Assembly (NCBI GenBank): GCA_902618555.1
Contig: CACNAY010000009.1
Coordinates: 1-35,049 of the forward strand
Source: an uncultured Pelagibacteraceae bacterium
GTDB taxonomy: Bacteria; Pseudomonadota; Alphaproteobacteria; Pelagibacterales; Pelagibacteraceae
Length of the DNA: 35,049 bases
Reading direction: 5' to 3'
The notes under the pieces are model-generated. The model was not told the origin of the DNA and ran no database searches. It saw only the letters and a list, made by a program, of their open reading frames with translations. Below, piece after piece: positions 1,285 through 27,255 of this stretch. The translations under genes and the position numbers were made by a program. Positions within the stretch are counted from its first letter, which is position 1. Each line of letters opens with the position of its first letter.

Positions 1285-2373
1285 TGGAAAATTTTGAAAA
1301 TAAATTATCAAAAGTAGAGGGAACTATTAATAATATCAGGGGGTATCTTTGATAAAAATCAAGTTGAATTTAAACTTAAGGATATCGAAAAATCTCTACA
1401 GCAAGAAAATTTCTGGAAAAATAAAGAAATAGTAAAAAAAACTGTAAAACAAAAAAAAATTTTTGAAGAAATTCTTTCAACCTATAAAAATTCTTCTAAA
1501 GAAATATCTAATATAAAAGATTTATATAAATTAGCCTTAGATGAAAAAAATGAAGAAATTATTAAAGACTGCAATGAAAAAATAGAAGAAATTCAAATTA
1601 ATTTAAAAAAAAGCGAGATTAGTTGTTTTTTATCAGGCGAGAATGATGAGTTAAATATTTTTCTAGAAATTCATGCTGGAGCAGGGGGCACCGAAAGTCA
1701 GGACTGGGCTGATATGCTTAGGCGCATGTATATGAAATGGTTTGATAAAAAAGGCTTTAAGTATCAGATAATAAGTGAGCATAAGGGAGAAGAAGCTGGC
1801 ATAAAATCATCAACTTTAAAAGCCGAAGGGAATTATTTATATGGTTTAATGAGAGCTGAGTCCGGAGTACACAGGTTAGTCAGAATATCTCCATTTGATA
1901 GTGGAGCTAGAAGGCATACAAGTTTTGCAAGTGTTTGGGTCTATCCCGCAATTGAGGACAACATCAATATCCAAATTGATGAAAAAGATTTAAGGATAGA
2001 TACTTATAGGTCCAGTGGAGCAGGAGGACAACATGTGAATACAACAGATAGTGCTGTAAGAATAACACATTTACCTACAAGGATAGTTGTTCAATGCCAG
2101 AATGAAAGATCACAACATAAAAATAAAGAAACTTGTTTTAAAATGTTAAGAGCAAGATTATATGAAAATGAAATGCAAAAAAGAGAGGAAGAAAATAAAA
2201 AAGAGTTAAATGCCAAAACAGATATTGGCTGGGGCCATCAGATAAGATCTTATGTATTACAACCATACCAATTGGTAAAGGATTTAAGAAATAAATTAGA
2301 AAGTACCAATCCATCTAGTGTTTTAGATGGAAATATAGATCAATTTATAGAAGAGGGAATAAAAAATAAATAA
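1284..2373 (+). CDS. prfB: Peptide chain release factor 2, expressed by programmed +1 frameshift at CTT-TGA (1347-1352)
   Basis: ATG at 1284 opens MENFENKLSKVEGTINNIRGYL then in-frame TGA (1350-1352); +1 frame continues DKNQVEFKLKDIEKSLQQENFWKN... into the 1714-2373 ORF with the GGQ motif (SSGAGGQHVNTTDSAVRITHLPT). AGGGGG-TAT-CTT-TGA matches the classic RF2 frameshift signal. Confidence 0.95.
1338..1352 (+). promoter_or_regulatory. RF2 programmed frameshift site (SD-like AGGGGG, slippery CTT, UGA stop)
   Basis: AGGGGGTATCTTTGA read directly at 1338-1352. Confidence 0.93.
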
Positions 2374-4562
2374 TGACAAAAACAATTAAAATTATTTTTT
2401 TATTAATTACTATTATTTTTTTTTCAACAATTATCGTTTTATCTACAACCGGTATTAAGACGAATAAATTTAACAGTTTTATTTCACAAAAAATAAAACA
2501 AAATAATGACAAAATTGAAATAGAACTCAAGTCAATTTATTTTAAGCTTGATATTAAAGAAGTAAGCTTATTCTTAGAAACAGAGAGTCCAAAAATTTAC
2601 TACAAGAATAATCTTGTGCCATCTAGTAAAATAAGAGTTTATTTAGATTTTTTATCAATTATCAAATCTGAGGGAAAAATAAAAAAAGTGATTTTAAACT
2701 TAAATCAATTTAGCGTTGATCAACTAAAAACTATTTCACAAACTTTTAAACCCTCCAATTTTCAAAGCTTTATAAAGAATAAGTTAATTAAAGGAAAAAT
2801 AAACTCCGAAGTAGAGCTTTATTTTGACATGAACAATTCATTAGATAATTTTATTGCTCGGGGCACAGTTTTAGATCTAAATGTCGAAATATCAAAAGAT
2901 TTAAAATTTAAAGACACATCATTCAACTTTATTGCAGACCAAACTGATCTATTATTAAAAAATTTTTCTGGCAAATCGGAATTATTTTCTATTGAGGAAG
3001 GCGATTTAAAGGCAGATTTATCTTCAGAAATTAAAATAGAAACTAACTTTAAAACAAACATCAATTTTAATGAAAAACTAAAAAATCTAGAAAAATTCTT
3101 CCCATATTTTAATCATTTAAAAAATTTATCCGATATTCAAGCAAAACTGAATAATAGTTTATTTTTGAATTTTGATAAAACCTATAAATTAAAAGATTAC
3201 GATTATAAAAATAATGGGAAAATAATAAATGCGAATTTTGATTTGACGAAATTTAATTTAGATCATCTTTTAAAAAGAAATTTAAAAAAATTATCTATCT
3301 TCGATACAGATATAAAAACAACTTTAAATCCTAAAAAAAATCTTTTAAATTTTTCTGGAAAATATTCTTTAAATGATAGTAAAAATTTGGGTTTTGATAT
3401 AACAAACACTATCGAGAAAGAGTTGGTAAATTTAAAATTTAATGCTGATTACGATGAGTTGTTTGAAGTTAAGATTTTAAATTACATTAAAAATAAAGGG
3501 GACGTAGCTAAAATAAATTTTGATCTGGTAAAAAATAAAAACTCAATTAAGGTAAATCAAGTTAATTTAAGCGAGGGTAAAAATTCATTAATTCTGAAAG
3601 GTGCTAAATTTTCTAACGGAAAATTTAAGTTGTTTGATGAATTAGTAGTTAAAACATATGAAGATAATAAGAAAAATAACGATTTTTCAATAATTTTTAA
3701 TAAAGGTATTTATATTAAAGGAAAAAAGTTTGATGCAAGTAATTTACCAAAATTGTTAAAACAACAAACAAGAAAAAATATTTTTTCTGAAATTTCAAGT
3801 GATATAGAAATTGATTTAAATAGCATAATTGCACCAGTTTCTAAAAAATTAAAAAATTTCAAATTGATTGGTAGAATTGAAAAAGGTCGCTTTGTAAAAA
3901 TTACATCTAAAGGAGACTTTGGAGAAAATAATTTTTTAGATATAACAATGAAAAATGATAATAATAATAAAAAATATTTAGAAATATATTCAGATTTGAC
4001 TAAGCCATTATTAACAGAATACAATTTTTTTGAGGGTTTAACAGGTGGCAAATTACTATTTACTTCAATTATTGGAGAAGATTTCTCTAGTTCAAAATTA
4101 AAAATTGAGAATTTCAAGGTGATTGACGCTCCAGGAATGGTACAATTACTTTCGCTTGCAGACTTAGGTGGATTAGCAGATTTAGCTGAAGGTGAAGGTA
4201 TATCATTTGATACTCTTGAAATTAATATAGAAAAAAATAAAAATAATTTGAAAATCAATGAAATACTTGCCCTTGGTCCAAGTATTTCAGTTTTAATGGA
4301 AGGTTACCAAGATCAAAACGTTACAAGTTTGAGAGGCACTTTAGTTCCAGCTAAAACTTTGAATACAATTATTTCAAAAATTCCTCTTATTGGAGATATT
4401 ATTATTCCAAAGGAAGTCGGCGAGGGATTATTCGGAATAAGTTTTAAAATGAAAGGCCCTCACGGAGAACTCAAAACAACTATTAATCCAATAAGAACAA
4501 TTACTCCAAGATTTATTCAAAAAATTATCGATAAAAAAAAATTACCGAATAATTTTAATTAA
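2373..4562 (+). CDS. AsmA/YhdP-like (DUF3971-type) large envelope protein
   Basis: 729-aa ORF with N-terminal hydrophobic segment, beta-rich repetitive body, and C-terminal LLSLADLGGLADLAEGEGISFD ... GPSISVLMEGYQD resembling AsmA-like C-terminal regions; start overlaps prfB stop (TAATG). Confidence 0.65.
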   Translation: MTKTIKIIFLLITIIFFSTIIVLSTTGIKTNKFNSFISQKIKQNNDKIEIELKSIYFKLDIKEVSLFLETESPKIYYKNNLVPSSKIRVYLDFLSIIKSEGKIKKVILNLNQFSVDQLKTISQTFKPSNFQSFIKNKLIKGKINSEVELYFDMNNSLDNFIARGTVLDLNVEISKDLKFKDTSFNFIADQTDLLLKNFSGKSELFSIEEGDLKADLSSEIKIETNFKTNINFNEKLKNLEKFFPYFNHLKNLSDIQAKLNNSLFLNFDKTYKLKDYDYKNNGKIINANFDLTKFNLDHLLKRNLKKLSIFDTDIKTTLNPKKNLLNFSGKYSLNDSKNLGFDITNTIEKELVNLKFNADYDELFEVKILNYIKNKGDVAKINFDLVKNKNSIKVNQVNLSEGKNSLILKGAKFSNGKFKLFDELVVKTYEDNKKNNDFSIIFNKGIYIKGKKFDASNLPKLLKQQTRKNIFSEISSDIEIDLNSIIAPVSKKLKNFKLIGRIEKGRFVKITSKGDFGENNFLDITMKNDNNNKKYLEIYSDLTKPLLTEYNFFEGLTGGKLLFTSIIGEDFSSSKLKIENFKVIDAPGMVQLLSLADLGGLADLAEGEGISFDTLEINIEKNKNNLKINEILALGPSISVLMEGYQDQNVTSLRGTLVPAKTLNTIISKIPLIGDIIIPKEVGEGLFGISFKMKGPHGELKTTINPIRTITPRFIQKIIDKKKLPNNFN

Positions 4563-23237: not shown

Positions 23238-24128
23238 TTAATCAAGCCAATCTTTAAATACTTTTTCATTTTTAGAAATATATTCCGGAAGAAGACTTAA
23301 GTCTATTTTTTTTAAAGTAGATTTGCCACTCCATTTAAAATCTTTTTGATCAACTTTATAATCATAAATTACTCTTTTATCATTAATTATTTTTTTTATA
23401 TCTTCTAATTTAAGTCCGCTTAATTCGAATTCATAATGATGAGCAAAGTTTAGTAATTTTTTTTCAAGTTCCTCGGGTTTTCTTAGACACGTAAAATGCC
23501 ATCCACCATTTTTTGAAAAAATTATATTTGAGTATTTTTTTCTTGAGAAATAGGTGTCTAATCTCCATTTAGAATATTTTTTTCCCTTAATATTCCTCAA
23601 CCACTGTGGTGATAACAAATTCTTTTTTTTTACTGCCCTAGTTCCATGCCAGGAAAAATTCTCATAATGTAAATTCAATTTGTAATAAAAAATTTTTTGC
23701 TCGAAGAAAATGATATTATTATTAATATTATTAAAGTCTAAATTATTAAGGTTTGGAATTTCATCTAAGTCACTAATTAAAATAATATCACTATCTCTAG
23801 CTTCTATTAATCCTTTTTGAATGCATTCTCTTTGATAATAATCTCTAGCCATTCCGTTTAGAATGAGTTTCTCACCTCTCTTTTCTTTGCTCTCTCCTTC
23901 TACAAGGTTGATTATGTTTTTAGGCTCTTGATCTACCTTGATATAAATTATCTTGTCTTTAAACTTTTTAAACTTATCAATATCAAAGTTTAATTTCTTT
24001 TTACTTCCATTGTGGGTGTAACTAGCTTCTGTAATTATGAATTTATCTACAAATTTGTTAAGGTGATTGAGCCTTATATCTAATAGTAAATCTTCATCAA
24101 AATACATAAAGCAATCATAAATATTCAT
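23238..24128 (-). CDS. Glycosyltransferase family 17-like (beta-1,4-mannosyl-glycoprotein GlcNAc-transferase-like)
   Basis: N-terminal MNIYDCFMYFDEDLLLDIRLNHLNKFVDKFIITEASYTHNG, IILISDLDEIPNL, GGWHFTCL are typical of GT17 proteins. Confidence 0.8.
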   Translation of the reverse strand: MNIYDCFMYFDEDLLLDIRLNHLNKFVDKFIITEASYTHNGSKKKLNFDIDKFKKFKDKIIYIKVDQEPKNIINLVEGESKEKRGEKLILNGMARDYYQRECIQKGLIEARDSDIILISDLDEIPNLNNLDFNNINNNIIFFEQKIFYYKLNLHYENFSWHGTRAVKKKNLLSPQWLRNIKGKKYSKWRLDTYFSRKKYSNIIFSKNGGWHFTCLRKPEELEKKLLNFAHHYEFELSGLKLEDIKKIINDKRVIYDYKVDQKDFKWSGKSTLKKIDLSLLPEYISKNEKVFKDWLD

Positions 24129-24179: not shown

Positions 24180-26732
24180 ATGAAAAAAAAAATTATTATT
24201 ACTGGTGGTCTTGGATACATTGGAACGGAGCTTTGTAAGCTTTATTCAGGAGTTAGCTGGAATCATAAGATATTGGTGATAGATAATAGGTTTATTTCCG
24301 AAAGAGTGAATCAAATTAGAAATTGGAATATGGATTTCATACAAGGTGATATTCTTGATAAAGAGATGGTCAACAAAAATTTTAAAGATGCAGATGTCGT
24401 CCACCACTTAGCGGGAATTACTAAAGTACCTAGAACGCAAAGCGAGTCAGATAAATCTCAAGATGATAAAATAATGAGTGTGGCAATAGAGGGGACAAAA
24501 AATATTTTAGATGCAATAAGCAATAATTGTAAGATCATTTTTCCATCTACTCACGTAGTTTATGAGGGAATAGGAGAAGTAAGAAAAGATATAAAAGAAG
24601 AGGAAAGTACTAAACCAATTTTAAGCTACTCCAAATCCAAATCAATAAATGAGAAACAAATAAAAGATTCTAAAAAAAATTATATTATTTTGAGACTTGG
24701 CTCAGTTTATGGTTATTCCACAGATACTATGCGTATGGATATTATGCCGAATCTTTTTTCTAAAATTTCTTCACAGAACGGTATATTAAAACTTTTTGCA
24801 GGCGGTCAACAAGTAAAAAGCTTAGTTCCTTTAATTGATGTTGCTAGATGTTTTAAATTTATGGAAGAAAATAATAAAATAAACTCTGAACTATTTAATT
24901 TAACAAAAGAGACATTAACCGTAAAAGAAGTTGCTCAAATTTGTAAAAAACATAATCCCAAAGTAATACTAAGAGAAACAAACGATGAAGTTCCGAATTT
25001 AGGATTTTCTCTATCAAATAAAAAACTAATGAATACTGGATTTGAATTTTTATATAATCTTGATCAAAATATAAAAGAGATGATCCAAAAATGGTCTGAA
25101 CATGAAATAACCAAGGATTTAGAACATGTAAGAGACGGAAAAAATATTTTTAAAGACAAGCGTGGGACAATAAGTAACCATGAACTACCTGAGCCAATAA
25201 ATTTAATTGGACTCATAGACTCAAAAAAAGGAACAATCAGAGCAAATCATTATCATCCTCAACAAGAGCAAAAATGTTTATTTACAAAAGGCCAAATAAT
25301 AGAAGTTTTTCAAGATATTATTAATCCTAAATCCCCAAAAGTCACGCAAGTAGTTAATGAAGGCCAACTTTCTATAATTAAACCAAATGTAGCTCATACA
25401 ATGGTTTTTTCAAAAGACTCAACATTTTTAAATCTTGTTAGAGGTGAAAGAGATCACGAAAATTATGGAATTACCCATACGATAAAACATAATTTTGTAG
25501 ATGAAAATGAAAAAAATCTCTTATTAAAAAATTATAAATTCGAATGCAGGTCTTGCGGAAATAAAAACTTAAAAAGAGTTGTCTCTTTAGGATATCAACC
25601 CTTAGCTAACAATTTATTAAAAAAATTGACTGAAAAATGCGAACTATATCCGCTCGAGGTAAATTATTGTGAAATTTGTCATAACTGTCAATTATCTGTT
25701 GCTGTAGATCCAAAAAAAATGTTTGCTAATTATCTATATACCTCATCTACTTCAAAAATTTTTAGAAAGCACTTTATTAATTCTGCAAAAAAATATTGCA
25801 GAGACTTAAAATTAAATAAAAAAAACTCATATATAATTGATATTGGAAGTAATGACGGTATAGCACTAAAACCATTTTTAGATATGGGTTTTAAAAAAGT
25901 AATTGGTATTGAACCTGCTAAGAATTTAGCAAAACTTGCAAATAAAAAAAAGATAAAAACATTAAATATGTTTCTTGAGAAAAAGAATCTAAAAAAAATT
26001 AAAAAAAACGCAAATTTGATTTTAGCATCTAATGTTTTTGCTCATTCTGACAAATTAAAAGAAATGGCGGAATGTATGATATATCTTTTATCAAAAAACG
26101 GAACAATCATAATAGAAGTTCAGTATTTGATGAATACTTTAAAAGATCTAACATTTGATAACATTTACCATGAACATTATAATTATTGGTCCTTAACTTC
26201 CTTAGTAAACTTTTTTAAACAATTCAATGCAAAAATTTATAAATCTGAAAAAGTTAATACTCACGGGGGTTCTTTAAGAATTTACGTAAGTAAAAATAAA
26301 AAGATAAAAATCGAAAAAAGTGTTCACTTAATGCTTAAAGAAGAGGAAAATTATGGCATAAAAAAATATAAAACTTACAAAGAATTTGGTAAAAAGGTAT
26401 ACAAAATCAGAGAGAATGTAATTCAAAATATTAAAAAACTTAAATCTAAAAACAAAAAGATTATTGCTTACGGGGCTCCAGCAAAAGCAACAACAGCTTT
26501 AAATTTTTATGGAATCACTAATGAAATAGACTTTATAGTAGAAGATAATCATCTTAAGCAAGGCAAATTTGTCCCGGGAGTCAAGATACCAATTAAACCT
26601 AAATCAAAAATTAAAGATAAAAATAATTATTTAATCGTTTTAGCTTGGAATTTTTTTGAGGATATAATAAAAAATAATGAAAATCTTTCAGATAATTTTA
26701 TTAATATAAAAGATTTAGAAGTTAGTAAATAA
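24180..26732 (+). CDS. Multidomain deoxysugar enzyme: NAD-dependent epimerase/dehydratase (SDR) + cupin + SAM-dependent C-methyltransferase
   Basis: Single 850-aa ORF. SDR: GGLGYIGTELCKLY and YSKSK (about 24180-25100). Cupin: RANHYHPQQEQKCLFTKGQIIEVFQD...PNVAHTMVF (about 25120-25500). C-methyltransferase: CRSCGN...CEICHNCQL zinc site, IDIGSNDGIALKPF, THGGSLRIYVS, YGAPAKATTALNFYGI (about 25540-26729). Confidence 0.85.
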   Translation: MKKKIIITGGLGYIGTELCKLYSGVSWNHKILVIDNRFISERVNQIRNWNMDFIQGDILDKEMVNKNFKDADVVHHLAGITKVPRTQSESDKSQDDKIMSVAIEGTKNILDAISNNCKIIFPSTHVVYEGIGEVRKDIKEEESTKPILSYSKSKSINEKQIKDSKKNYIILRLGSVYGYSTDTMRMDIMPNLFSKISSQNGILKLFAGGQQVKSLVPLIDVARCFKFMEENNKINSELFNLTKETLTVKEVAQICKKHNPKVILRETNDEVPNLGFSLSNKKLMNTGFEFLYNLDQNIKEMIQKWSEHEITKDLEHVRDGKNIFKDKRGTISNHELPEPINLIGLIDSKKGTIRANHYHPQQEQKCLFTKGQIIEVFQDIINPKSPKVTQVVNEGQLSIIKPNVAHTMVFSKDSTFLNLVRGERDHENYGITHTIKHNFVDENEKNLLLKNYKFECRSCGNKNLKRVVSLGYQPLANNLLKKLTEKCELYPLEVNYCEICHNCQLSVAVDPKKMFANYLYTSSTSKIFRKHFINSAKKYCRDLKLNKKNSYIIDIGSNDGIALKPFLDMGFKKVIGIEPAKNLAKLANKKKIKTLNMFLEKKNLKKIKKNANLILASNVFAHSDKLKEMAECMIYLLSKNGTIIIEVQYLMNTLKDLTFDNIYHEHYNYWSLTSLVNFFKQFNAKIYKSEKVNTHGGSLRIYVSKNKKIKIEKSVHLMLKEEENYGIKKYKTYKEFGKKVYKIRENVIQNIKKLKSKNKKIIAYGAPAKATTALNFYGITNEIDFIVEDNHLKQGKFVPGVKIPIKPKSKIKDKNNYLIVLAWNFFEDIIKNNENLSDNFINIKDLEVSK

Positions 26733-27255
26733 TTAATAAATCTCTTACTATTTCAAAAACATTTCTTACACTCTCAAAAAAATAATTTAGATAAAATTCT
26801 GATAATGGCAGCTTAACTACTATGAAATCTTTTGCAAAATATAGCAATCTAGTTAAAAAGATGAATAAAAAAATAAATAAAATTAGCGAGTTATAGAAGC
26901 CAAAAGAAACATTAGATATCTTAATTTTTGAATTATTACTTTTAATATTTGAGTCATTAATTTTTATACCATGCTTTTTTGCTAAATATTCTGGTGAGTA
27001 TAAGCTGATTTCTCTTGGTTTCCTTGTAGAAATTTTTTTTACCTTTTTTGCTTTTTGTGTTTTTAGTTTAGCCGGCTGAGGTTTTGAGACTACTTTTTGG
27101 ATACGAGAGATTGATTGAGTTTTTTTAGCTTCTCCTAAAGGGAATTGTTTCCATTTATTTCCACATGAGCCACATTGAACCATTCTTCCAGACACGGTTA
27201 TCGCGTTATCAGGAACAACAAATTTTTTGCCGCATGAATTACAAGTTAAAATCAT
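26722..27255 (-). CDS. MJ0042-type zinc-ribbon protein with one C-terminal TM segment
   Basis: MILTCNSCGKKFVVPDNAI...VQCGSCGNKWKQFP; hydrophobic SLILFIFLFIFLTRLLYFA. Confidence 0.8.
   Translation of the reverse strand: MILTCNSCGKKFVVPDNAITVSGRMVQCGSCGNKWKQFPLGEAKKTQSISRIQKVVSKPQPAKLKTQKAKKVKKISTRKPREISLYSPEYLAKKHGIKINDSNIKSNNSKIKISNVSFGFYNSLILFIFLFIFLTRLLYFAKDFIVVKLPLSEFYLNYFFESVRNVFEIVRDLLIIY

Follow-up and report, generated by a model that had tools for sequence, protein, structure and literature searches.

The question raised by this locus is whether a single polypeptide could carry out several consecutive steps in the synthesis of a methyl-branched nucleotide sugar. Little is known of the chemistry of the surface glycans of SAR11, whose cells are among the most abundant in the ocean, and these glycans are likely targets of phages. 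If one near-core gene suffices to make a branched sugar, it would be a testable handle on SAR11 glycan chemistry. The gene lies in a window of 35,049 nucleotides (contig CACNAY010000009.1, from an uncultured Pelagibacteraceae bacterium), which is the whole stretch of DNA analysed here.

Domain Organisation of the Fused Gene

The open reading frame at positions 24180–26732 of the forward strand encodes 850 aa, starts with ATG and runs without interruption in the list of frames of the window, as the preliminary description had it. Pfam assigned, above the cut-offs, Epimerase to residues 5–240 (E 6e-24), Methyltransf_13 to residues 456–515 (5e-16), Methyltransf_23 to residues 544–686 (1e-13) and Methyltransf_14 to residues 694–837 (2e-43), the last three by the gathering thresholds. 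The middle 140 residues remained under all Pfam cut-offs, the best families being RmlC, the CapF C-terminal domain and Cupin at E 0.009–0.03; the cupin fold of this segment was recognised by AlphaFold2 and Foldseek, and thus the three-part reading is right. Pfam, for the SDR and the methyltransferase, and the structural search, for the cupin, agreed with the three activities proposed for the chain and with their order: SDR, cupin and C-methyltransferase. The whole-chain AlphaFold2 model, built with 38 sequences, had a pLDDT of 81. The open frame, the Pfam matches, the relatives and dN/dS all identify the gene as a fused SDR-cupin-C-methyltransferase, and each of the three domains is under purifying selection (dN/dS 0.02–0.16). 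Each belongs to a described family; it is a real, conserved and new fusion of known enzymes, whose chemistry is expected to be of known type.

Conserved Residues of the Three Domains

Residues 451–850 form a complete zinc C-methyltransferase of the TcaB9/MtmC type, with Methyltransf_13, the SAM domain and Methyltransf_14 in order. In comparison with MtmC, KijD1 and TcaB9, phmmer gave E values from 6e-64 to 2e-47, and Foldseek a target TM of ~0.88. The zinc-binding part (25545–25724, +), seen by Pfam and in the alignment, carries Cys456, Cys459, Cys497 and Cys500; the SAM-binding part (25809–26237, +) carries DIGSNDG at residues 554–560; the C-methyltransferase C-terminal domain, assigned by Pfam, follows at 26259–26690 (+). 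Using the chain of the E224Q mutant in the alignment to fix the mapping, we could place the residues of TcaB9 mutated in the solved structures, Y76, H181, Y222, E224 and H225, on Y518, H622, Y663, E665 and H666, respectively. These five residues, the SAM motif and the four zinc cysteines did not vary among 21 homologues, 8 of which were copies from phages or viral contigs. A methyltransferase of the zinc-binding TylC3/NovU type, as first proposed, is therefore borne out with its known active-site residues present, and a search for missing catalytic residues found those that could be mapped to be conserved.

The SDR domain (residues 1–310; 24180–25109, +) contains GGxGxxG (G9–G15), Asp35 after β2, S123/T124, Y150 and K154, again invariant in the same 21 homologues with their 8 phage or viral-contig copies. 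Asp35 suggests, from the sequence, an SDR of the NAD(H) type. Its closest solved relative, by sequence (E 3e-26) and by fold (Foldseek, E 4e-22), was Cj1427 (PDB 6vo6), an NAD-dependent C4-dehydrogenase with tightly bound NADH (PMC10680097). The 4,6-dehydratases are marked by an acid/base pair, [ST]DE or [ST]DK, together with Yx3K (PMC8987622). This pair was absent from the SDR domain, where S123-T124-H125-V126 was found, invariant in the 21 homologues, and because the pair is missing we rejected a role of the domain as NDP-sugar 4,6-dehydratase. The preliminary description had named SDR-cupin chains as known (CapF-like). The arrangement of an SDR followed by a cupin in one chain does agree with CapF, but the SDR itself is not close to it: the 60 top-ranked matches at E 0.01 did not include CapF, and orthology to CapF is unsupported.

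The cupin domain (residues 311–450; 25110–25529, +) carries RANHYH(x)3E (H357, H359 and E363) and H406. The three histidines were invariant in the 21 homologues, and residue 363 was mostly Glu, with Gln in some phage copies. Among the three domains it was the least similar by sequence to solved enzymes (best E 0.006), and CapF is no nearer a relative of it than RmlC. The family of the CapF C-terminal cupin, PF14667, matched at E 0.012, below the cut-off, and the CapF cupin in the PDB at E 0.04. When modelled separately (pLDDT 74), the domain retrieved by Foldseek the FdtA/QdtA ketoisomerases, the GDP-heptose C3/C5-epimerases MlghB/DdahB/Cj1430, RmlC and ChmJ, with a best E of 1.6e-6; the model thus has the fold of a sugar-nucleotide epimerase or ketoisomerase.

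Distribution in Pelagibacterales

Among 84,980 species genomes scanned there were 220 relatives, the best 80 of which were examined in detail. These 80 were essentially full length, 74–89% identical and all from Pelagibacterales, and in 80/80 one continuous frame of 830 aa or more encoded the protein; one of them, L044, departs only in the glycine-motif pattern searched for. An assembly join at a domain boundary, which had been named as a possible objection, was looked for and is rejected on this count. Within the order, the fusion was found in 52 of 297 sampled genomes, among them 29/30 of the window's own genus; a few copies were contig-edge fragments or were interrupted by a stop codon or a frameshift. 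It is, then, a near-core gene of a SAR11 genus. In one SAR11 genome (L112, G211:C4:1000-7500), a break within the cupin divides the fusion between two frames, which looks like a pseudogene or an error of sequencing.

The preliminary description had called the third domain unusual, and indeed the full chain was found in 0/398 other genomes across the phylum, scoring the two best candidates per genome, and CapF has no methyltransferase. This sample yielded the methyltransferase alone, at ~26–38% identity, and two genomes with a cupin joined to the match. Plasmids gave 195 records with partial matches, none over more than 80% of the query.

The usual gene order was tig, clpP, clpX, lon, the divergent glycosyltransferase of family GT17, the fusion, a convergent zinc-ribbon gene and nuoA onward, with a minority of copies elsewhere (L060, L067, L068, L073, L077, L078, L080 and others). 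The MJ0042-type zinc-ribbon gene (26722–27255, −) is convergent to the fusion and overlaps its 3′ end by 11 bases; its position before nuoA is conserved in the genus and less so outside. In another part of the window, prfB (~1280–2373, +) shows an apparent programmed +1 frameshift, in which frame 0 ends in IRGYL-stop and the body of RF2 follows in the next frame, a pattern as in the classical autoregulation of RF2. It is followed by a frame of 729 aa (2373–4562, +) with no Pfam or NCBIfam match and GC down to 0.21, the C-terminal part of which may be AsmA/YhdP-like.

Phage and Viral Copies

Outside Pelagibacterales, and within the collections searched, the fusion was found only in phages. Nine viral contigs carried it at 50–57% identity, one of them (L090) frame-disrupted as deposited, and the 642 kb megaphage LR756502, for whose group of records a freshwater lake in France is given (PMC9723777), matched at 54% over 98% of the query. 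LR756502, with a T4-type portal (E 1e-58), and the 81 kb contig IMGVR_UViG_3300008448_000038 (L084), with a T4-type portal (E 2e-173) and a terminase (E 1e-12), are certainly phages. T4-type portal and terminase were not found on the other viral contigs with the fusion, and so their phage nature rests on IMG/VR. In the methyltransferase tree, the phage copies formed one clade (99/99) beside the SAR11 copies, a topology that does not give the direction of transfer. As a further observation, in L084 and in LR756502 (L092, LR756502.1:441119-463641) the fusion sits amid genes for an FkbM methyltransferase, an SDR, GT11, GT17 and a PLOD-type glycosyltransferase, a phage glycan cassette.

Glycan Setting

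The GT17 gene (23238–24128, −) adjoins the fusion in the window, and a GT17 gene lies directly upstream of it in the megaphage. A homologue was present in 65 of the 80 fetched loci, two of the 15 loci without a match being contig ends. Where GT17 was not adjacent, the gene just upstream was often a GT2 (L060, L067, L114), a PLOD-type glycosyltransferase (L083) or a sulfotransferase-like gene (L085). Genomes with the fusion had GT17 in 47/52 cases and those without it in 113/245 (p 1e-9 over all of them and p 0.04 when the genus is left out). GT17 is therefore the likely partner of the fusion. Across the sampled Pelagibacterales, GT17 occurred in 160/297 genomes, often in two or three copies, and in 0/14 control genomes. 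None of the neighbours scanned was a nucleotidyltransferase pointing to the nucleotide.

Of the surface-glycan role suggested earlier, the glycan part is supported by these neighbours (GT17, GT2 and other glycosyltransferases), and the word "surface" would be an extension of it. It is striking that such a fusion is near-core in a streamlined genus and that the same partner accompanies it in phages; the phage copies hint that phages may rebuild or imitate the SAR11 glycan.

Origin of the Fusion

The components of the fusion also occur as separate genes. In the phylum sample, from other Pseudomonadota, homologues of the cupin and of the methyltransferase lay within ~1.5 kb of each other in 6/9 loci, and the fusion is thus one of a known toolkit. 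One genome of the same family (G143) has consecutive genes for a 4,6-dehydratase with an SSDE motif, a cupin and a C-methyltransferase; one of another family (G439) has SDR, cupin and methyltransferase genes in that order; a third (G275) has, besides the full fusion, unfused genes for a methyltransferase, an SDR and a cupin that lie within 5 kb at another site. Shorter forms were a cupin-methyltransferase didomain without SDR, with GT17 ~2 kb away (G212), and a lone methyltransferase of 59% identity (G216). From the separate neighbours and the didomain, the fusion most likely arose by joining of neighbouring genes. The dehydratase of G143 was ruled out as the source of the fused SDR (25% identity, different motif).

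Proposed Chemistry and Alternatives

The three domains with their conserved catalytic residues, the conservation of the fusion and its glycan-gene neighbours are direct observations, on which we infer a substrate, an order of steps, a stereochemistry and a use of the product. C-methylation by enzymes of the TcaB9/TylC3 type needs a ketone beside the methylated carbon. The fusion probably makes a C-methyl-branched NDP-sugar: the C-terminal domain would deprotonate the carbon next to a C4-ketone and transfer a methyl group from SAM, the cupin would be the acid/base catalyst of an epimerisation or isomerisation at C3 or C5, and the redox step at C4 would fall to the N-terminal SDR with NAD(H). 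The reaction scheme of the preliminary description is plausible but unproven. In our leading version, an NDP-4-keto-6-deoxyhexose would be made elsewhere by RmlB or Gmd, the cupin would epimerise it, methylation would follow and the SDR would reduce C4. A glycosyltransferase, which in this genus would be GT17, would then use the product for a surface glycan. A 4-ketone supplied by RmlB or Gmd, with reduction by the SDR as the last step, is a tentative assignment, with a chance slightly short of even.

In favour of the leading version, the window's own genome has rmlB, by family match, side by side with an rmlA-like gene, and 4-keto-deoxysugars are the substrates of those methyltransferase relatives that have been characterised. 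RmlB was present in 39/52 genomes with the fusion and in 101/245 without it (p 1e-5 overall); however, outside the genus the figures were 15/23 and 92/205 (p 0.08), and so the link is largely one of shared ancestry, which counts against this version. Also against it, Asp35 suggests NAD(H), while NADPH was the cofactor in assays of the Campylobacter C4-reductases (PMC10680097), and the nearest solved SDR is a dehydrogenase. RmlB was missing from 13/52 genomes with the fusion, and any dehydratase of RmlB or Gmd grade from 5/52, which we did not use as evidence since ~5/52 is expected from genome incompleteness alone. A dehydratase of either grade was present in 47/52 (90%) of the genomes with the fusion and in ~79% of the others. 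Given these figures and the unclear RmlB enrichment outside the genus, we rejected an assignment of the substrate from gene co-occurrence, which, over 52 genomes with the fusion and 245 others, does not separate a last reduction by the SDR from the self-contained cycle considered below. In a related genome (L097, G252:C4:54000-70000), the cluster by rmlB-rmlA varies and contains, as judged from the starts of the sequences, RmlC-like, FdtA-like and second C-methyltransferase-like genes.

In the self-contained cycle, the SDR would oxidise C4 of an ordinary NDP-sugar and later re-reduce it with its own bound NADH, the cupin and the methyltransferase acting on the 4-ketone in between; the SDR would both make and remove the ketone, the pathway could do without a further dehydratase or reductase, and its product would not be a 6-deoxysugar. 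The proximity to Cj1427 with its tightly bound NADH, the R-x-D-x3-N-x-F stretch and the Asp after β2 that both share, the lack of the dehydratase pair and one genome (G137) with no GDP_Man_Dehyd-type SDR other than the fusion all fit such a cycle. On the other hand, few 4-ketoreductases of this SDR kind are in the PDB, so that the nearest match is biased; the known methyltransferase relatives use 4-keto-deoxysugars; and a dehydratase of RmlB or Gmd grade is present in nearly all genomes with the fusion, although in most others too. We consider this cycle unlikely and lean towards the SDR reducing last. It is rather unlikely, too, that the fusion is a redox-neutral branching machine on a non-deoxy sugar that replaces the dehydratase and reductase route, near-core in the genus and carried by T4-like phages and a megaphage with a matching GT17.

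By analogy with an MtmC-type methyltransferase, reported to reduce C4 as well (in work cited by PMC3539893), the SDR might be free for another step if the methyltransferase itself reduces C4.

It is improbable that the SDR or the cupin is structural or regulatory, with the methyltransferase, perhaps with one partner, as the catalyst and the fusion serving oligomerisation or channelling: the didomain and the lone methyltransferase described above and the low similarity of the cupin to solved enzymes would agree with it, but catalytic residues and low dN/dS are kept in all three domains, and the residues are retained even in phage copies at ~50% identity. Most doubtful is an unbranched product, with the methyltransferase homologue acting at another position or on a non-sugar acceptor. 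Family membership does not fix regiochemistry (the TylC3 and NovU types differ in the carbon methylated), but all five mapped TcaB9 residues are present and an SDR and a sugar-nucleotide cupin on the same chain point to a nucleotide sugar.

Comparison with Known Systems

MtmC, TcaB9 and KijD1 (PDB 4rv9, 3ndi and 5t64), which are NDP-sugar C-3′ methyltransferases, match all of residues 451–850 and share with the fusion the zinc site, the SAM fold, the catalytic Tyr/His/Glu and the C-terminal domain; they are, however, separate actinomycete antibiotic enzymes, whereas the fusion carries this domain last, at 25–32% identity. MlghB/DdahB/Cj1430, RmlC and FdtA/QdtA have the same cupin fold and motif His, but are separate proteins with sequence similarity below or near significance. 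Cj1427, a GDP-heptose C4-dehydrogenase, is an SDR alone, 25–27% identical to that of the fusion; the likeness is in sequence and fold, and the same activity in the fused SDR would be a prediction from it. CapF (PDB 2zkl, 4yrd) also joins an SDR and a metal cupin in one chain, with a related NHYH/NHWH metal motif (the metal site of the fusion is predicted), but has no methyltransferase. The literature searched held no description of a triple SDR-cupin-C-methyltransferase fusion. For enzymology such a chain would offer three steps joined by nature in a single polypeptide, in which every active site appears to be intact. The multidomain rhamnose synthases of plants and viruses (PMC8987622) likewise fuse consecutive NDP-sugar steps in one chain, but they join a dehydratase with an epimerase/reductase, whereas here the chain ends in a C-methyltransferase.
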